Assembly (NCBI RefSeq): GCF_004331435.1 | Contig: NZ_SJKA01000016.1 | Span: 62,001 to 126,000, forward strand | DNA length: 64,000 nucleotides | Source: Kribbella sindirgiensis | GTDB taxonomy: Bacteria > Actinomycetota > Actinomycetes > Propionibacteriales > Kribbellaceae | Direction: 5' to 3' | Shown here: positions 23,850-32,430 of the stretch, in pieces | How positions within the stretch are numbered: position 1 is the stretch's first letter | Layout of the letters: each line of letters starts with the position of its first letter | The notes under the pieces: model-generated | Seen by the model: only the letters and a program-made list of their open reading frames with translations | What the model was told of the DNA's origin: nothing | Database searches by the model: none | Program-made: the position numbers and the translations under genes

Positions 23850-24464
23850 TTAGAGCCAGGCCGGAAGAGGCTCTGCGGGCTCGCCGTCCGGTCCCGTGAC
23901 GTCAGCGTACGAACGGCCGGCCAGGTAGGCGGCGATCTCGGAGACCGGGCCGTGGACCTCTGGTACGTCGCCGCGCTGCGTGCGGATGTCTGCGCACAGC
24001 GCCTCGAGGAAGTCGGCCGGGAGATCGGCGAACGTGATCCCCGCGCCGAAGTCGACGGCGTGGATGAGAACCTCGCGAGACCGCATCCACCGGATCTCGG
24101 ACGCCGGGATCGGGGCGCCGCGCGAGGTCCGGACCTGCGTCCGCCACTGCTCGTCCGTCAACGTCGCCATCGCCGCCGCGAGCCCGGCCGCCGACTCGTC
24201 GAACCAGTCCCGCAGCTCGCCTGCCGGTCGCGCGGTGGCCTGCTCGATATCCGCGTTCCGCGCCTCGGCGGACGGATACATCGGCCGTTCCTCGCCGGTG
24301 CGGGCCCAGTGCACCAGGTTCCCCAGCGCCTCGGCGTTCAGCGACAGGTGGGCCGCAACATGCCGCCGCGACCAGCCCGGCAGCGACGACGGCGCCTCCA
24401 GGTCACCGAGTGCTCCGCGGCACAGCGCCGTACCTTCGTCGATCCACTCCAGAACGCGCTCCAT
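23850..24464 (-). CDS. Maleylpyruvate isomerase-type (DinB fold) mycothiol-linked protein
   Basis: A 204-residue protein of the MDMPI N-terminal/DinB superfamily. A metal-binding histidine is visible in RRHVAAHLSLNAEAL and a second in REVLIHAVDFGAG; the LPGWSRRHVAAHL signature is characteristic. In mycothiol-containing actinomycetes, members act as mycothiol-dependent isomerases or transferases, but most are of unknown substrate. The ATG at 24464 follows TACGTT (24471-24476) by 6 nt with no ribosome binding site, implying a leaderless message. A longer frame to 24791 runs antisense into the next gene and was rejected. Confidence 0.88.
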   Translation of the reverse strand: MERVLEWIDEGTALCRGALGDLEAPSSLPGWSRRHVAAHLSLNAEALGNLVHWARTGEERPMYPSAEARNADIEQATARPAGELRDWFDESAAGLAAAMATLTDEQWRTQVRTSRGAPIPASEIRWMRSREVLIHAVDFGAGITFADLPADFLEALCADIRTQRGDVPEVHGPVSEIAAYLAGRSYADVTGPDGEPAEPLPAWL

Positions 24465-24549
24465 GAGGCGAACGTAGCCGACCACGGCGCGGGTTCTTGC
24501 AGCGGTGCGGTGTTGTGGTGAGACTGACCCCCATGGAGGGGACCCGCGC

Positions 24550-25764
24550 GTGGTGACGACGATCGGAGTAGTAGGACCGTCGGACCTGGTCACCTCCACC
24601 AGCCGCATCATCAAGGGACTGCGCGGCGTCGAGGTGGTCCCGCTGCGGTACCGCCGGGAGACCGACACGCCCAAGGTGATGGCCGACGCGCCGGGCAGCG
24701 TCGACGCGTGGCTGTTCACCGGCGTCGTCCCGTACCAGATCGCCGCCGCGCAGGACCTCCTGGACCGCCCGGCCGCGCACGTCGAGTACACCGGCGCGAC
24801 GCTGATGCGCGCCCTGGTCCAACTGCTCCGCGAGGGTCACGACGTGACGTCGCTCAGCATCGACGTACTCGACGAGGCCGATGTCCGGGAGACGTTCGAC
24901 GAGGTCGGGCTCCCGATGCGCGGTGTCCGTGTCCTGCCGTACCGGCCGGGTCTCAGCCTCGACGAGATCGTCGAGTTCCACCACGAGGCCGGCGCGACCG
25001 TCGCGATCACCTGTCTGCGGTCGGCGTACGAGAAGCTCCGGACCGAGCAGACCACGCTGCGTCTCGCTCCGTCGGTGCACTCGGTACGGGCCGCGGTCAA
25101 CAGGTTGCTCCTGGTTCACGACGCTTTGCGCAGTGACGATGCGCAGATCGCGCTCGGCCTGGTCGAGATGTCGCCGGACGCAGAGAGCGCTCTCCAGCGC
25201 GAAGCGGGCTCACTCGGCGGCAGCGTCATCCGGTACGACGACAAGCGGTGGCTCGTGGTGGCCACCCGCGGACCGCTCGAACAAGCAACCGCGGCGTTCA
25301 CGGAACTCGGCATGCTGACCCGGTTGAAGGAGCAGTTCGGGCCGGTCCGGATCGGGTTCGGCATCGGCGGGTCCGGGACCGAGACCGAGGCGCTGGCCCG
25401 CCGGGCACTCGGCCGCGCGAAGACCGCCGGACGGACGGCGGCCGTCGTGTCGCTGCGCAACGACATCGATCTCGTGCTGGTCGGCGGCGCGCCGCCACGC
25501 GCCCAGCAGCGCTCGAAACTACAGCTGCTCGCGCAACGCGCCGGCCTCTCGAAGGCAACGCTCGAACGGCTCCAGGAGCTGGTCCGCGCCACTCCCGAGG
25601 ACGGTTTGACCACGCGCTCCGTGGCCGATTACCTCGGCATCCAGCCGCGGACCGCGCGCCGCGTCCTGAACCGCCTCGAGCGCGCCGGACTGGCCGATGC
25701 CACCGGCACCCAGCTCGGCACCGGCAGCGGCCGCCCGCTCGTCGTTTATCGCGTTCATCTCTGA
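24550..25764 (+). CDS. Putative transcriptional regulator, sensor domain plus C-terminal winged helix
   Basis: A 404-residue protein I do not recognise by name. Residues 1-190 resemble a periplasmic-binding/PrpR-like ligand domain (TTIGVVGPSDLVTSTSRII, LFTGVVPYQIAA, GATVAITCLRSAYEKL). About 200-325 look like a GGDEF- or GTP-cyclohydrolase-III-like fold (FGIGGSGTETEALARRALGRAKTAGR) without a GGDEF catalytic motif. The C-terminus, about 335-400, is a winged HTH (LTTRSVADYLGIQPRTARRVLNRLERAGLA). Start GTG has GGAGGG nine nucleotides upstream; the adjacent in-frame GTG at 24553 is also possible. It is immediately upstream of and co-oriented with the propeller operon and is the best candidate for its controller. 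One alternative annotation would be GTP-cyclohydrolase-like. Confidence 0.75.
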   Translation: MVTTIGVVGPSDLVTSTSRIIKGLRGVEVVPLRYRRETDTPKVMADAPGSVDAWLFTGVVPYQIAAAQDLLDRPAAHVEYTGATLMRALVQLLREGHDVTSLSIDVLDEADVRETFDEVGLPMRGVRVLPYRPGLSLDEIVEFHHEAGATVAITCLRSAYEKLRTEQTTLRLAPSVHSVRAAVNRLLLVHDALRSDDAQIALGLVEMSPDAESALQREAGSLGGSVIRYDDKRWLVVATRGPLEQATAAFTELGMLTRLKEQFGPVRIGFGIGGSGTETEALARRALGRAKTAGRTAAVVSLRNDIDLVLVGGAPPRAQQRSKLQLLAQRAGLSKATLERLQELVRATPEDGLTTRSVADYLGIQPRTARRVLNRLERAGLADATGTQLGTGSGRPLVVYRVHL

Positions 25765-25779
25765 TTGTTTCCCGAACGG

Positions 25780-25809
25780 TTGACGCACTGACGCACGTCC
25801 GGCTAATTT
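25780..25809 (+). promoter_or_regulatory. Strong promoter with tandem 8-bp repeat
   Basis: TTGACG (25780-25785), an 18-nt spacer and TAATTT (25804-25809) match the housekeeping sigma consensus well. TGACGCAC occurs twice in direct tandem at 25781-25788 and 25789-25796, covering the -35 and spacer. This is a likely binding site for a regulator, possibly the one encoded just upstream. The leader to the GTG at 25853 would be about 36 nt. Confidence 0.65.
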
Positions 25810-25852
25810 CAGCCATGACCGTAATTCGGTGCGTACTGTCCCGGGAGGCCTT

Positions 25853-27790
25853 GTGGACAAGCGATTCGCACGGGGATTGATCGTTGCTCTGGTCATCTGC
25901 GCAGGTTTGGTGAGCGTTTCTGCTCCGGCCGACGCCACTATTCCGGTCGGGACCGAAACTCCGACCGTCACCAGCCTCGGTCCGGCGTCCGCCGTGACCT
26001 CGACCAGCGTCGCCGAGCAGGTCGGTGACCGGATCTGGACCATCACCTCCGGCGTCGCACCCGTCCAGGTCGGCGCGTTCGACCCGGTCGGCAAGACCGT
26101 CGACCGCAAGTTCTCCCTGCCGACCGGCGCCGGGGCGTGGGCGATGACCCATATCGGCACCGACCTGTACATCGGCCTCTACACCCCCGGTGACGTCTAC
26201 AAGGTCGACACGACGACCGGCACCGCGGCCAAGGTCGCGCAGTTCGGCTCGTTCGTCTGGTCGATCGCCGCCACCCCGGACGGCAAGATCGTCGCCGGGA
26301 CCTATCCGGACGGCGCGGTGCACGAATACGACCCGGCCACCGGCGCCACGAGGTCGTACGGCGCCGCCATCGCCGGCGAGCAGTACGTCCGCAGCATCGC
26401 CGCCGACGCCACCACGATCTACGCCGGCGTCGGCACGAAGGCGCACCTGATCGCCATCGACCGCGCGACCGGCGACCGGCGCGACGTGCTGCCCGCCAAG
26501 TACGCGGACCGTACGTTCGTCGCCACGCTCGCGCTCGACGGGACGAAACTCGCCGCGGGCCTCTCCCCCACCGGCACGATGCTCGTCTTCGACACCACGG
26601 ACCTGAGCAACCCGGTCGAGGTACAGACACCCGGCGGCGACCAGTACGTCACCGCGATCACCTTGAGCGGCGCTGACGTCTACCTCGGCACACGCCCGTC
26701 CGGCACGCTCTACCGGTACCGCGACAACGCGCTGACGCGCCTCGGTTCGCCGTACGACGGTGCGTACTTCAACCGGATCTTCGTCGAGGGTTCGACCATA
26801 CGGGCCGAGCTGACCAGCCAGGTCGTCGACTTCGACGAGGCGAGCGGGACGTTCAGCGGCACCGACCTGGGTCAGGCCGGGCTGCCACCTGCGCCCGAGC
26901 AGCCGATGGCGATCGCCGCGACGCCCACGTCCGTGCTGGTCAGTGGCAAGGCGGGCATCCAGGTCCATGACCTCGCGACCGGCGCCAGCACCCGGACCTT
27001 CCTGCCCGGCGAGGCCAAGACCATGACGCCGGTCGGCCGGCAGGTGTACCTCGGTGTGTACACGCTGGCCCGTCTCTGGCAGATGGAACCGGACGGCACC
27101 GGCCTGCACGAATTCGGCCGGATCGGCAACGAGCAGACCCGCCCGACCGACGCCGCGTACGACGCCCGCTCACAAACGTGGCTGCTCTCCACCGAGCCCG
27201 ACTACGGCAAGTACGACGGCACGCTCGTCGAGCAACACCTCGACACCGGTCAGCTCGAGGTGCACCGCGGCGTCCTCCCGCACCAGTCGGTCCGTTCGGT
27301 GACGACCGCGGACGGAATCGCGTACCTCGGCGGCGCGACCCGGAACAGCCTCGGCACCGACCCGATTCTGCCCGAGGCGACCGTTGTCGCGTTCGACCAG
27401 CGCCGCAACCAGGTGTTGTGGGAGACCGCCGCGCTTGCCGGAGCACAGAGTTACAGCGCCGTCGCGCAGTACCGCGGCCGTCTGTACGTGACCACCGACG
27501 ACGGCCGCCTCGCAGTCCTCGACCCGCGCACCGGCACCCTCGTCGCCGGCGCCACGCTCGGCACCAGTCAGAGTCGACTGACAATCGCACGCTCCGGCCT
27601 GTACGGGACGGACAGCAAACGTGTCTTCAAGATCACGCCGACCACCACCGGAGCCCCGACCGTGAGCACCGTGGTCGACGGGCTCGCCTCGCAGATCTAC
27701 GGCTACCCGCTCATCACCACGTCGCACGACGGCGCGGCGCTCTACACGATCAAGGGCCGCGACCTCGTCCGCATCGGAGGGCTCCGATGA
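25853..27790 (+). CDS. Secreted beta-propeller protein (Sec signal)
   Basis: A 645-residue exported protein. The signal peptide is VDKRFARGLIVALVICAG followed by a likely cut after SAPADA. The mature part is almost entirely repeats of about 40-50 residues with pattern LYIGLYTPGDVYKVDTTTG, VAGTYPDGAVHEYDPATG, VYLGTRPSGTLYRY, which is typical of a WD40/YVTN/PQQ-like propeller, perhaps two propellers in tandem. No catalytic motif is evident; it probably binds a ligand or glycan. The GTG start follows GGGAGG by a short 4-nt spacer; an upstream in-frame GTG at 25829 lacks a ribosome binding site. The stop overlaps the next gene (ATGA). Its paralogue follows directly. Confidence 0.85.
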   Translation: MDKRFARGLIVALVICAGLVSVSAPADATIPVGTETPTVTSLGPASAVTSTSVAEQVGDRIWTITSGVAPVQVGAFDPVGKTVDRKFSLPTGAGAWAMTHIGTDLYIGLYTPGDVYKVDTTTGTAAKVAQFGSFVWSIAATPDGKIVAGTYPDGAVHEYDPATGATRSYGAAIAGEQYVRSIAADATTIYAGVGTKAHLIAIDRATGDRRDVLPAKYADRTFVATLALDGTKLAAGLSPTGTMLVFDTTDLSNPVEVQTPGGDQYVTAITLSGADVYLGTRPSGTLYRYRDNALTRLGSPYDGAYFNRIFVEGSTIRAELTSQVVDFDEASGTFSGTDLGQAGLPPAPEQPMAIAATPTSVLVSGKAGIQVHDLATGASTRTFLPGEAKTMTPVGRQVYLGVYTLARLWQMEPDGTGLHEFGRIGNEQTRPTDAAYDARSQTWLLSTEPDYGKYDGTLVEQHLDTGQLEVHRGVLPHQSVRSVTTADGIAYLGGATRNSLGTDPILPEATVVAFDQRRNQVLWETAALAGAQSYSAVAQYRGRLYVTTDDGRLAVLDPRTGTLVAGATLGTSQSRLTIARSGLYGTDSKRVFKITPTTTGAPTVSTVVDGLASQIYGYPLITTSHDGAALYTIKGRDLVRIGGLR

Positions 27791-29733
27791 TCATCTCCCG
27801 CCGTACCGCTCTCGCCGGCGCCCTGGCCACCGGCGCGCTGACTGCTCTCCCCACCACTGCTCACGCGGAGGACGGACCCATCGACGGTTCAACCCTGCCC
27901 ACTTCCGGCCCCGCGGTCGTGACGGCCGCCGTCGTTGCGATGGCGGTGCTCGACGGTCATGCGTACGTGATCAGCCGCGGCATCGTGCCGCCCCGGCTGA
28001 CCGAGGTCGATCTGACCACCCGCCGCGTGACCAGGACGGTCGAGCTGCCGACCGGCGAAGGCGGCTGGGGCATCACGGTTGCCGCCGGCAAGGTCTACTG
28101 CGGGCTCTATCCGACCGCCGACGTCTACTGCTTCGACCCGGCCGACGGATCCGTGGTCCACGTCGGAGCGCTCGCCGGTCCCGGCGGATTTGTCTGGGAC
28201 ATGACGACGGCACCCGACGGCCAGGTGTTCGCGGTCAGCTACCCGAACGGCGCGGTCTGGCAGATCGATCCCGCGACCAACGCGGCCACACGGCTCGGAG
28301 CCCCGGTCGCCGGAGCGCAGTACGGCCGCTATGTCGGGGCCGCAGGCAACTACGTGTACGCCGGGATCTACACGCCGGCGCAGGTGGTCGGGTACGACCG
28401 GAGTACCGGGGTCTTCCGCGACCTCACGCCCGAGACGTCCCGTGGACAGAACTTCGGCCCGTTCGCGGGCGCCGGCGACCGGATCTACGTCGGCAGCAGC
28501 CGCGCGTTGCTGAACATGGCGCTCGACGGCAGCGACGTACGGGCTGTGCCGCTACCCGAGGGCCAGTCCAGCGTCGACGCGATCACGGTCGCCGCGGACG
28601 GTACGGCGTACCTGACGACCCGGACGTCGGGGACGGTTTGGTCGTGCGGACCGGAGGACACCAGCCTCACCGCGGTGGCGACGCCCGCGCCGTCGGACGA
28701 GCATCGCCGTCTCGTGATGCTCGACGCGAGCACGCTGCTCGGCGCGACCGGGTCCGGCGTCCTGTGGTGGCTCGACGTCGCGACCGGTGAGTTCGAACTG
28801 CTCGATCTCGTCGACGCCGGGTTCACGCCCGCGCCGGACAAGCCGCAGTCGATCGTGATCGGCGACCCGCATCTGTACGTCGGCGGGCACTGGGTGGTCA
28901 CCGAGCACGCGATCGACACCGGCGTCACGCGCCGCCTCCGCGTCGCGGGTGAGGCCAAGACGCTGAACTGGGTACGGGGCGAGCTGTACTCCGCCCTGTA
29001 CCCGAGCACCGAGGTGGTCCGGATCAACCCGCGCACCAAAGAGGTGCACAGCTTCGGCAAGATCGGTCACGAGCAGATCCGGCCGTGGCAGGCCGCGTAC
29101 GACCCGAAGTCGAAGCTGCTCGCGATCGCGTCCGCACCAGGCACCGGGAAGCTGACCGGCGCACTGACCTTGCTCGACGTACGCACCGGTGAACTCGACG
29201 TGCGTTTCGGCGTGCTCCCCGATCAGGGCCTGCTGTCGGTCTCGATCGTCGACGGCATCGCGTACGTCGGCGGGGACGTGGTGGGCGGCGGTGGCGTCCC
29301 GCCGACCCGCACCTCGGCCTCGATCGCGGCATTCGACCTGTGCCGTCGCGAACTGCTCTGGACCGCGGAGCCGCTCGCCGGGGAGCGCTCCATCCAGAGC
29401 GTCGCCGTCCACGACGGCATCCTGTACGGCGTCCTGAAGCGCACCAGCGGCGGCTGGTTCACGTACGACCTGCGCACGGGCGCCGTCGTCCGCGGCGCGA
29501 ACAAGCTGTCCGGGTACGGCCAGATCCACACTGACCGCACCGGCGTCTACTGTGAAACGAACTTCGGCGGGAACCTGTACCAGCTGGGCCCGGGCCTCAG
29601 CAGTGCGAAGCTGCTCGTGAACAAGCTCGGCGACGGGTGGTACACCGTGCCGCAGCTGACCCCGGTGCCTGGCGTCCGGCACAGCGTCTGGGGCCTGGCC
29701 GACCGCGATCTCGTCCAACTGCCGTTGCCCTAA
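27787..29733 (+). CDS. Secreted beta-propeller protein (Tat signal)
   Basis: A 648-residue paralogue of the preceding protein. The N-terminus is a Tat signal, SRRTALAGALATGALTALPT with a likely AHA cleavage site. Propeller repeats match its neighbour in order: KVYCGLYPTADVYCFDPADG, VFAVSYPNGAVWQIDPATN, YVYAGIYTPAQVVGYDRSTG and, near the end, SFGKIGHEQIRPWQAAYD against FGRIGNEQTRPTDAAYD. Tat export implies folding in the cytoplasm, perhaps with a cofactor. No active-site motif is evident. Its start overlaps the previous stop codon. A gap of 14 bp separates it from the aminotransferase gene. Confidence 0.85.
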   Translation: MIISRRTALAGALATGALTALPTTAHAEDGPIDGSTLPTSGPAVVTAAVVAMAVLDGHAYVISRGIVPPRLTEVDLTTRRVTRTVELPTGEGGWGITVAAGKVYCGLYPTADVYCFDPADGSVVHVGALAGPGGFVWDMTTAPDGQVFAVSYPNGAVWQIDPATNAATRLGAPVAGAQYGRYVGAAGNYVYAGIYTPAQVVGYDRSTGVFRDLTPETSRGQNFGPFAGAGDRIYVGSSRALLNMALDGSDVRAVPLPEGQSSVDAITVAADGTAYLTTRTSGTVWSCGPEDTSLTAVATPAPSDEHRRLVMLDASTLLGATGSGVLWWLDVATGEFELLDLVDAGFTPAPDKPQSIVIGDPHLYVGGHWVVTEHAIDTGVTRRLRVAGEAKTLNWVRGELYSALYPSTEVVRINPRTKEVHSFGKIGHEQIRPWQAAYDPKSKLLAIASAPGTGKLTGALTLLDVRTGELDVRFGVLPDQGLLSVSIVDGIAYVGGDVVGGGGVPPTRTSASIAAFDLCRRELLWTAEPLAGERSIQSVAVHDGILYGVLKRTSGGWFTYDLRTGAVVRGANKLSGYGQIHTDRTGVYCETNFGGNLYQLGPGLSSAKLLVNKLGDGWYTVPQLTPVPGVRHSVWGLADRDLVQLPLP

Positions 29734-29747
29734 GCAAAGGATTCCTG

Positions 29748-30980
29748 ATGGAGAACAGTCAGCTCGCCCGTGACGGCGGGACGCCGGTCCGCACGGAGCC
29801 GCTGCCGTCGGTGATGAACGCCAGCGGCCGGCGCTTCGGCGACGACGAGGTCAAGGCGGTCGAGCGAGTGCTGCGCAGCGGCATGCTCTCGGCCACCTGG
29901 GGAACGGAGGTTCCCGCGCTCGAGCTGGAGTTCGCGTCGCTGCTCGGCGCCGGGCACGCGGTCGCCTGCAGTTCGGGAACGGCGGCGCTGCACCTGGCCG
30001 TCGCCGCCGTGAACCCGGATCCCGGCGACGAGATCATCACCACGCCGATCAGCGACATGGGTACCGTGTTCCCGATCCTCATGCAGAACGCCGTACCGGT
30101 GTTCGCGGACGTCGACCCGATCACCGGAAACCTGACGCCCGAGACCGTGGCCGCCGCGATCACCCCGCGCACGAAGGCCGTCATCGTCGTACACCTGTTC
30201 GGGAAGCCGGCCGCCGTCCGGGAGTTGCGCGCGCTCTGCGACCAGCACGGGATCCTGCTGATCGAGGACTGCGCGCAGGCATACCTCGCGCCGGTCGGCG
30301 ACACGTACGTCGGCCGGATCGGCCACATCGGGTGCTTCAGCCTGCAACAGACCAAGCACATCAGCGCCGGCGACGGCGGTCTCGCGGTCACCGACGACGC
30401 GCAACGCGCCCGCCGGATGCGGTTGTTCGCGGACAAGGGCTGGCCGCGGGACACCGACGAGCGGACCTACCTGTTCCTCGCGCTCAACTACCGCATGACC
30501 GAACTCGTCGCCTCGGTCACGCGCGCGCAGCTCAACCGGCTGCGCGGCGTCGTCCAGGATCGTCGTACGGCGGCGCTCCGGGCAACCGCAGGGATCGCGG
30601 ACCTGGCCGGGGTCACAGCCCCGCCGGACGGGCAGGACCACGTGTACTGGCAGTACCCGCTCATCATCTCCGAGGCGGCCGGCGACATGCGTGAATGGGC
30701 CGCGGCGCTGACCGCCGAGGGCATCCCGGCGAACGGCGGCTACCTGACCAGCCCGCTGTACGCCGCACCTGCGGTCCGCGAGCGGATCACCTACGGCCAG
30801 TCCGGGTTCCCGCTGCGGGACGTCTCGTACCCGGTCGGGTTGTGCCCGAACGCAGAGGAACTCATCGACCGGAAGCTGCTCGTCCTCGCCTGGAACGAGA
30901 ACTACACCGAGTCCGACGTCGACGACATCGTCGCCGCGATCCGCAAGGTCCACAACGCCCTGTCCCGGAAGGCATCATGA
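29748..30980 (+). CDS. DegT/DnrJ/EryC1/StrS family PLP aminotransferase
   Basis: A 410-residue sugar-aminotransferase-fold protein. Visible motifs are SGMLSATWGTEVPALE, ACSSGTAALHLAV (phosphate cup), EIITTPISDMGTV, the Asp of LLIEDCAQAY, and the Schiff-base lysine Lys203 in FSLQQTKHISAGDGG. Relatives transaminate nucleotide-linked keto sugars or act as dehydratases; the retained lysine and Asp favour a PLP transaminase. Substrates are unknown, and no sugar-nucleotide enzyme is beside it. The ATG has AAAGGA six nucleotides upstream. The stop overlaps the next start (ATGA). Confidence 0.9.
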   Translation: MENSQLARDGGTPVRTEPLPSVMNASGRRFGDDEVKAVERVLRSGMLSATWGTEVPALELEFASLLGAGHAVACSSGTAALHLAVAAVNPDPGDEIITTPISDMGTVFPILMQNAVPVFADVDPITGNLTPETVAAAITPRTKAVIVVHLFGKPAAVRELRALCDQHGILLIEDCAQAYLAPVGDTYVGRIGHIGCFSLQQTKHISAGDGGLAVTDDAQRARRMRLFADKGWPRDTDERTYLFLALNYRMTELVASVTRAQLNRLRGVVQDRRTAALRATAGIADLAGVTAPPDGQDHVYWQYPLIISEAAGDMREWAAALTAEGIPANGGYLTSPLYAAPAVRERITYGQSGFPLRDVSYPVGLCPNAEELIDRKLLVLAWNENYTESDVDDIVAAIRKVHNALSRKAS

Positions 30981-31705
30981 CCGATACTCCCCTGCTGCTC
31001 GACTGCGACATCCTGGTCGGGCACGACGTGACAACGGGGCGCTGGGGCCGGCCCGAGAACGTCGCGAAGGTGTTCGCGGAGAGCGGGATCTCGGGCGGCG
31101 TCGTGTCCGGGCTGCGGGCGGTGCACTTCGACGTACGGTCCGGGAACGACGAGGCGCGGCAGGTTGCCGATGGCAACGGCTGGACGACGTGCCCGGTGCT
31201 CGACCTGCGCGATCCGCTCGGCGCGGAGAAGGAACTGGAGCGGCAGCTGGCCGGCGACACGCCGCCGCGGGCCGTCCGGCTGGCGCCCACCGCGCAAAGC
31301 GTCGAACCGACGTACCCGGCTTTCGGTCATGTGGTGCAACTGCTCGTCGACGCCGGGCTGACGATCTTCACCGAGGGCGACGTCCGCAAGGTCGGCCCGG
31401 CGCTGCGCGGGCTCGGCGCGCGCGTGGTGTTCCTCGACACGCATTTCTACTACCTCGGGGACTTCGTGCTGCTGGCCCGGTCCGAGCCTGGGTTCCACAC
31501 CTCCACCCGGATGCTCACCGGACCGGACGCGCTGGAGATCGTGGCCGCGGAGGTCGGCGCCGAGCGGCTCGTGCTCGGGTGCCGGACGCCGTTCCACGAG
31601 ACCCGCTCGGTGATCCGCCGGCTGCTCTCGTCGAAGCTCAGCGCGGACGAGATCGCCCAGGCCGGAAGCCGCAGCCTCACGACCTTGCTGGAGCCCGCAT
31701 GCTGA
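30977..31705 (+). CDS. Amidohydrolase-like protein lacking the HxH motif
   Basis: A 242-residue TIM-barrel-like protein related in layout to the amidohydrolase-2 family and to the following gene. It begins LLLDCDILVGHDV, where the metal-binding HxH is expected, so two key ligands are missing. Later elements include PVLDLRDPLGAEKELE, ARVVFLDTHFYY and RLVLGCRTPFHETRSVIRRLL, the last resembling the FGTD-containing strand of active enzymes. It may be an inactive partner of the next protein or use another chemistry. The ATG overlaps the DegT stop, and its end overlaps the next start by 7 bp. Confidence 0.7.
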   Translation: MTDTPLLLDCDILVGHDVTTGRWGRPENVAKVFAESGISGGVVSGLRAVHFDVRSGNDEARQVADGNGWTTCPVLDLRDPLGAEKELERQLAGDTPPRAVRLAPTAQSVEPTYPAFGHVVQLLVDAGLTIFTEGDVRKVGPALRGLGARVVFLDTHFYYLGDFVLLARSEPGFHTSTRMLTGPDALEIVAAEVGAERLVLGCRTPFHETRSVIRRLLSSKLSADEIAQAGSRSLTTLLEPAC

Positions 31706-32430
31706 TCGACGTACACGCCCACTGGGGACCGTGGTTCTTCTCGATGGACGTCGCGAGCATCGACACCAACATCGACGGACTCGACCGGTTCGGCATCGAC
31801 CTCCAACTGGTCTCCGCGATCGAGGCCATCGTGTACGACGCCCCGCTCGGCAACCGCTCGCTCGCGGAGCAGCTTCCGGCCGATCCGCGGCTGCGCGGGA
31901 TGATCGTCGTCGACCCGCGCCGCCTCGACGAGGCCCGCACGGATCTCGACGAGTTCCTCGCCGGCGACGGGCGGACGCGGTGGGTCGGCGCGAAGATCCA
32001 CACCGAGTACAGCCGGACGCCGATGACGTCGCCCGCGATGCAGGCGGCGATCGAGCTCACCACGGAGTACGGGCTGCCCACCCTCGTACACACCTGGGGC
32101 GACACCGTCGTCGATCTCGCCGACGTCGCCGCCCGGGTCCCGGGGGCGCAGGTGCTCGCCGGTCACATGGGCGCGAACGGCTGGCCCCGGGTCCCCGAGG
32201 CGGCGGACCGCTGCGACCGGATCTGGTTCGAGCCGTGCTGGTCCGCGCCCGAGGCCAACCGGATCCGCTGGATCCTGGACCGGATCGGTCCCAGCCGGAT
32301 GATGTTCGGCACCGACGCCACGCTGATCGACCCGTCGATCGCCCTCGGCGCCCTCGAAGCCGCCGACCTAACCCCCGCCGAACACGAGGCCGTCACCCAC
32401 CGCAACGCCCTCGAACTGTTCGGCCTCTGA
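31699..32430 (+). CDS. Amidohydrolase (amidohydrolase-2 family)
   Basis: A 243-residue metal-dependent TIM-barrel hydrolase or decarboxylase. It opens with LIDVHAHWGPW (HxH ligands), then has the His in LPTLVHTWGDTVVDL, LAGHMGANGWPRV, and the conserved Asp in SRMMFGTDATLIDPS. This motif set suits uronate-isomerase-like, ACMSD-like or phosphotriesterase-like lactonases. Specific substrate unknown. It is the last gene of the five-gene operon that begins at 25853 and is short for the family. Translation is coupled to the preceding, probably inactive, relative. Confidence 0.85.
   Translation: MLIDVHAHWGPWFFSMDVASIDTNIDGLDRFGIDLQLVSAIEAIVYDAPLGNRSLAEQLPADPRLRGMIVVDPRRLDEARTDLDEFLAGDGRTRWVGAKIHTEYSRTPMTSPAMQAAIELTTEYGLPTLVHTWGDTVVDLADVAARVPGAQVLAGHMGANGWPRVPEAADRCDRIWFEPCWSAPEANRIRWILDRIGPSRMMFGTDATLIDPSIALGALEAADLTPAEHEAVTHRNALELFGL

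Follow-up and report, generated by a model that had tools for sequence, protein, structure and literature searches.

A candidate regulon joining exported double beta-propellers with a DegT-type aminotransferase and an intact/ligand-less amidohydrolase pair in Kribbella sindirgiensis and other actinomycetes

What is the function of an operon that places two exported beta-propellers beside a PLP-dependent aminotransferase and two amidohydrolase-like proteins, and do these genes belong to one system? This question is raised by a locus of Kribbella sindirgiensis (genome size 8.89 Mb), found within a stretch of 64,000 nucleotides that was analysed as a whole and is referred to here as the window. 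An ORF check of the window gave six co-linear ORFs on the plus strand, between positions 24550 and 32430. The initial annotation, made from the sequence alone, had described six closely packed genes. They do lie on one strand, with overlaps of 4 bp (propA/propB), 4 bp (DegT/p5) and 7 bp (p5/p6), but gaps of 88 bp (regulator/propA) and 14 bp (propB/DegT) separate the others.

The first gene, p1 (24550 to 25764, likely start GTG at 24550), encodes a regulator with an N-terminal sensor-like part, a weak GGDEF_2-like middle and a C-terminal winged HTH. In Pfam, the C-terminal HTH_23 match was above its cut-off and the GGDEF_2 match, at 18 bits, was below its cut-off of 24.5; GGDEF_2 plus a C-terminal HTH is the criterion for the PucR/CdaR type. 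A PDB sequence search with the regulator returned nothing useful. The next two genes, propA (25853 to 27790) and propB (27787 to 29733, likely start ATG at 27787), encode exported double beta-propellers matching Pfam PQQ_2/DUF6923, and propB is about 33% identical to propA. By reading, propA carries a Sec-type signal and propB a twin-arginine motif, SRRTALAG. As a fold search with the propellers matched only generic double propellers, no function was assigned to them. Downstream are p4, a DegT-type PLP aminotransferase (29748 to 30980, likely start ATG at 29748); p5, a pseudo-amidohydrolase with the amidohydrolase fold and no metal ligands (30977 to 31705, likely start ATG at 30977); and p6, an Amidohydro_2 enzyme with intact ligands (31699 to 32430, likely start ATG at 31699).

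The gene set is not a chance neighbourhood, as 30 of the 37 other genus genomes have p5, almost invariably next to DegT and p6, and other families have the set too. In the rest of the order, p5 is present in a few genomes only. In a class-wide draw of 395 genomes, 19 had p5 and 22 had the DegT subfamily, the latter set off by a clear gap in score, and a phylum-wide draw gave one weak match besides the genome studied here; the set therefore looks patchy and actinomycete-bound. The 80 loci collected are from Kribbella, Jiangella, Haloactinopolyspora, Nonomuraea, Streptosporangium, Micromonospora, Pseudonocardia, Actinomadura, Tessaracoccus and others. Genes in these relatives were called with a simple codon-composition caller, and neighbours were named after the Pfam/NCBIfam matches of single representatives. 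Among the 49 other-genus loci of at least 19 kb, 43 have ABC permeases, 42 propellers, 38 DegT and 37 the regulator. Most relatives retain a p1-family gene next to either DegT or the transporter cluster, and DegT loci lacking the amidohydrolases also tend to have the regulator family, propellers and the transporter. The initial annotation had proposed one unrecognised system combining exported propellers with cytosolic PLP and amidohydrolase chemistry. This claim has held up: the set recurs in distant actinomycete genera of several families, the genes are mostly together rather than apart, and they share a common operator. In the open-licence literature, we found neither a description of the cluster nor a described pathway to which each gene belongs.

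The operator is a 20-bp near-palindrome, ATTnCGGTCnnGACCGnAAT, located ahead of the propeller gene at window positions 25806 to 25825 and common to the regulator/DegT intergenic regions of Nonomuraea, Streptosporangium, Micromonospora and Hamadaea. It was found by reading intergenic sequences side by side; a search for exact palindromes between the regulator and its neighbour found little. Copy 1 in the window (ATTTCAGCCATGACCGTAAT, 25806 to 25825, plus strand) has two mismatches to ATTNCGGTCNNGACCGNAAT and is kept in nearly all relatives of the window operon. An operator-like copy 2 with one mismatch (25940 to 25959, plus strand) lies inside the start of propA and is partly conserved, giving two matches in the window versus 0.14 expected. 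Copy 1 overlaps the -10-like part of a promoter-like element, TTGACG-18-TAATTT (25780 to 25809, plus strand), which was recognised only by reading, the automatic promoter scan having found none. Because this overlap would fit a repressor site, we infer that the p1-type regulator may repress from an operator lying over the promoter and may be released by a pathway metabolite.

The same region bears on where propA begins. The initial annotation had suggested co-transcription from about 25816, and the ATG at 25815/25816 was considered as the start of propA. This ATG is out of frame with propA and falls within the conserved operator, and the GTG at 25853, with GGGAGG upstream of it, is the likelier start. 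A short ORF, MTVIRCVLSREALWTSDSHGD (25815 to 25880), begins within the operator and overlaps the propA start, and similar ORFs occur in close relatives. It is probably a by-product of operator conservation, and it may be a leader peptide.

With a threshold of at least 13 of 16 matches, 306 operator sites, 293 of them intergenic, were present in 2.33 Mb of cluster DNA compared to 5 after shuffling; as the motif was derived from part of the counted loci, this count is not independent. The sites precede genes for propellers, SBP, sugar-ABC transporters, p5, DegT/regulator, type-2 amidohydrolase partners (see below), an epimerase, and luciferase-like/enolase-superfamily proteins. Pattern searches were also done genome-wide. 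In a complete genome of 9.0 Mb (G012), the pattern with at most two mismatches occurred at five positions, all at regulon genes when compared with the known regulon loci, and a control pattern occurred at none. In two further genomes (G014 and G032), sites outside the clusters were again often ahead of propeller-family genes. Some operator-like matches in the K. sindirgiensis genome are probably due to chance, such as those preceding NB-ARC regulators in L235. Sequence comparison thus establishes the linkage, the co-conservation and the common operator, and the genes very probably form one regulon.

Whether the propellers belong to this regulon or are bystanders upstream of a DegT-p5-p6 enzyme operon can be judged from the same data. 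In some Kribbella operons, the propellers are missing or partial and the regulator, DegT, p5 and p6 are retained, as would be expected for bystanders; such losses indicate that the propellers are not essential to the intracellular steps. Against this, propeller genes are preceded by the operator in different genera and in genome-wide searches, stand-alone propellers among them, and propellers occur in 42/49 of the other-genus loci, making a bystander role very improbable. In L110, a Kribbella operon without both propellers, the operator still heads the operon, ahead of DegT. A stand-alone third double propeller, propC (L224:7940-10355), is encoded on contig C22 of K. sindirgiensis with an operator about 90 bp upstream; a third propeller is present in 28/38 genus genomes, most of them with the operator.

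The linkage within the operon is real, but the operon is only part of a regulon whose transporter and aldolase-type genes lie elsewhere. On contig C31 of K. sindirgiensis (L223, 3804-13664), a second cluster encodes a propeller, an SBP, two permeases, a luciferase-like oxidoreductase, an enolase-superfamily protein, a DHDPS-type protein and a second regulator, the luciferase-like, enolase-superfamily and DHDPS members being matched at superfamily level only. It carries four operators, ahead of the propeller, the SBP, the luciferase/enolase pair and the regulator, and it has no DegT-p5-p6. Little of the contig follows the second regulator, but the genome has one p5 only. Eight sampled genomes with a window-type operon likewise have a C31-type cluster without DegT-p5-p6; in six other genomes, DegT-p5-p6 lies inside or beside such a cluster, and one of these (G026) has both versions. 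The presence of the enolase-superfamily gene agrees with that of p5 in 37/38 genus genomes (Fisher 6e-7, ignoring shared descent). In the exception, G032, transporter and aldolase-type genes adjoin the operon (L073).

Another operator-headed gene is found on contig C22. The exported GH123-like protein of L225 (6728-9199) matches GH123_cat at 65.2 bits (cut-off 23.1) and 8k2j at E=6e-18. It is nearest to beta-N-acetylgalactosaminidases and keeps the DE pair (YGFDEANG), and on the presence of the GH123 catalytic domain and this pair, it qualifies as a putative member of that group (8k2j; PMC11087588). The gene lies outside the window operon and is present in 7/38 genus genomes. At L225:6688-9202, an operator-like site is seen 40 bp ahead of it, and 6 of 7 orthologues have the operator.

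The enzymatic core of the operon begins with p4, which matches DegT_DnrJ_EryC1 (PF01041) over residues 33-399 with E=1.8e-84 and 284 bits (cut-off 19.8). K204 (numbering of window:29745-30977), which we take to be the PLP lysine, is invariant in 14 relatives in the context SLQQxKH. In family and in this lysine, p4 resembles the DegT/DnrJ/EryC1/StrS sugar aminotransferases PseC, LegC, ArnB and NtdA. It is nonetheless below every curated equivalog cut-off (PseC, 186 of 423.5; LegC family, 168 of 420; ArnB, 158 of 631), and its neighbours are importer and aldolase-type genes, not those for nucleotide sugars. Breakdown of nonulosonic (pseudaminic or legionaminic) acids, considered because PseC and LegC are the best matches, is no more than speculation, as nothing specific to it was seen in the K. 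sindirgiensis genome. In two relatives, DegT and p5 do not overlap but are separated by about 100-120 bp (L107:8344-8463 and L109:9123-9224).

DegT enzymes usually aminate, in biosynthesis, and the regulon could be biosynthetic: DegT would aminate a keto-sugar or cyclitol, p5-p6 and the aldolase-like enzymes would tailor an amino-sugar decoration or small molecule, and the propellers would be wall-associated binders. The best curated DegT matches are in keeping with this, being PseC, LegC and ArnB transaminases, though far under their cut-offs. However, the regulon contains an SBP-dependent sugar importer, the exported GH123-like protein and DHDPS-type enzymes, and neither the operon nor the C31 cluster was seen to encode a glycosyltransferase or nucleotide-sugar enzyme. 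We consider a biosynthetic role unlikely. As the importer, the exported proteins and the aldolase-type enzymes favour breakdown, the regulon is probably catabolic.

We propose that the operon supplies the deamination and hydrolysis steps of a regulon for using a glycan or glycoside that contains an amino sugar, a proposal for which we see about as much chance of being right as wrong. In this pathway: a metabolite of the pathway would release the p1-type repressor; outside the cell, the polymer would be bound or cleaved by the exported double propellers, together with the GH123-like protein where present; the sugar ABC importer of the second cluster would take up the product; oxidation, rearrangement and splitting of the carbon skeleton would fall to the luciferase-like oxidoreductase, the enolase-superfamily enzyme and the DHDPS-type aldolase; DegT would remove the amino group by transamination; and p6 would hydrolyse a lactone or amide, or decarboxylate. 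The initial annotation had suggested an amino- or uronate-type substrate. The GH123-like member and DegT favour an amino sugar, the case for which we regard as evenly poised; no pointer to a uronate was seen in the K. sindirgiensis genome. The occurrence of the GH123-like gene in just 7/38 genomes, the loss of propellers and the biosynthetic habit of DegT enzymes all speak against a catabolic amino-sugar reading.

Actinobacterial sugar regulons, for example those for chitobiose or cellobiose uptake, place an SBP-type ABC importer and hydrolases under one repressor. The present regulon is similar in having an importer, an exported carbohydrate-active protein, intracellular enzymes and a palindromic operator across operons. 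However, its main exported proteins are double propellers, its core is DegT with a live/dead amidohydrolase pair, it has no characterised substrate, and its regulator fits no curated family. Among the genes tested in the operon and the second cluster, there is no SusC/SusD pair of the Bacteroidetes PUL type, an ABC importer being present instead. These results provide a testable regulon and operator for families that have only generic names, namely DUF6923/PQQ_2-like double propellers, a DegT subfamily, a Pfam-less amidohydrolase and an uncharacterised regulator. If the proposal is true, the exported propellers would be glycan-active or glycan-binding proteins in soil actinobacteria. A further-reaching version, which we hold to be doubtful, is a new amino-sugar catabolic route of several actinomycete families, with DegT working in the breakdown direction, an obligate live/dead amidohydrolase heteromer, a new exported class of glycan-active double propellers and a new repressor family.

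The live/dead pair refines the earlier reference to two hydrolases, which is right for the intact enzyme p6, but not for p5, a ligand-less pseudo-amidohydrolase. Whereas p6 matches Pfam Amidohydro_2 (E=2e-25), p5 has no Pfam match. The five ligand positions (HxH, two His and Asp) read HHHHD in 99/99 distinct p6-type sequences and are intact in 0/99 distinct p5-type sequences, where they read DLEDR, DLGDR or similar. The two profiles nevertheless align over 227 columns at 98.4% (hhalign), and an AF2 model of p5 (pLDDT 85) has the amidohydrolase barrel, with Z scores of 20-23 to 3cjp, 4do7, 2dvt and ACMSD. Within the amidohydrolase superfamily (Amidohydro_2/ACMSD, COG3618 lactonase-like), p6 is thus alike in sequence and ligands and p5 in fold, but p5 lacks all ligands and is almost always paired with an intact copy. 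Of the 123 p5 genes, 115 adjoin an intact partner and 4 are separated from one by a single gene; another 3 lie at edges, and the last is alone. The counts refer to gene copies rather than to independent genomes, and some loci were counted twice. Intact and degenerate genes are also paired in two further cluster classes (types 2 and 3), in which the degenerate letters differ (HLDNG and others) and 61/61 degenerate genes are adjacent to a partner.

In the tree, a branch with support 99/98 splits all degenerate from all active copies, and the sub-groups on the two sides match. The simplest reading is one ancient duplication, after which the two copies descended together, although shared ligand loss could help to group the degenerate copies. 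Sequence comparison firmly supports an intact p6 lineage and a ligand-less p5 lineage, and p5 appears to be a dead twin of p6. We infer that the two may form a physical complex, in which p5 would give structure, active-site residues or regulation rather than catalysis. Catalytically dead activator paralogues are known from the trypanosome AdoMetDC prozyme (PMC5201418) and deoxyhypusine synthase (PMC3663545). Like these, p5/p6 would derive from an old duplication with one copy dead and both retained; unlike these, the pair is bacterial and has an unrelated fold, and its activation or complex formation is a prediction. If true, this would be a bacterial enzyme/dead-paralogue pair held through deep divergence and sometimes fused.

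Another explanation is that p5 uses the same barrel for a different chemistry, in a reaction sequence with p6. Some relatives, such as 2-pyrone-4,6-dicarboxylate (PDC) lactonase, are reported to need no metal, and PDC lactonases are among the structural matches of p5, which also has invariant polar residues of its own (D9, D11, R78, D79, R101, Q107, D154, Y158, D162 and R178). However, few of these residues recur in the other degenerate lineages, which are nonetheless paired with an active copy in the same way. In another cluster type, the pair is fused into one protein with a low-complexity linker (L091, L096), and such a fusion would suit a complex and a two-step enzyme equally. We consider a separate chemistry for p5 rather unlikely and prefer the dead-twin reading.

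Several minor observations were made in relatives. Fusions of about 545-605 aa (L091:9417-11234, L096:7239-8999, L097:9459-11096 and L127:13770-15587) join a ligand-less and, where read, an intact amidohydrolase, and among the proteins encoded next to them are a deacetylase-like protein (c36), a nitrilase-family enzyme and an FAH-family enzyme. Searching the PDB by sequence with c36 and with another neighbour protein, c33, gave nothing useful. A third cluster class with a live/dead amidohydrolase pair (L092, L093, L094, L095 and L076) has as neighbours a heparinase II/III-family protein, a Gfo/Idh/MocA oxidoreductase, a class III aminotransferase and a sugar importer. Three Kribbella genomes (L275, L276 and L277) carry another DegT lineage, 65% identical, with a c36-like protein and a regulator of the same family; Gfo/Idh genes are present in two of the three, and the operator described here is absent at the threshold used. 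Finally, upstream of the window operon, a minus-strand gene at 23850-24480 looks, by reading, like a maleylpyruvate-isomerase-family member; several close relatives have a gene at the same place, and it is probably unrelated to the operon.
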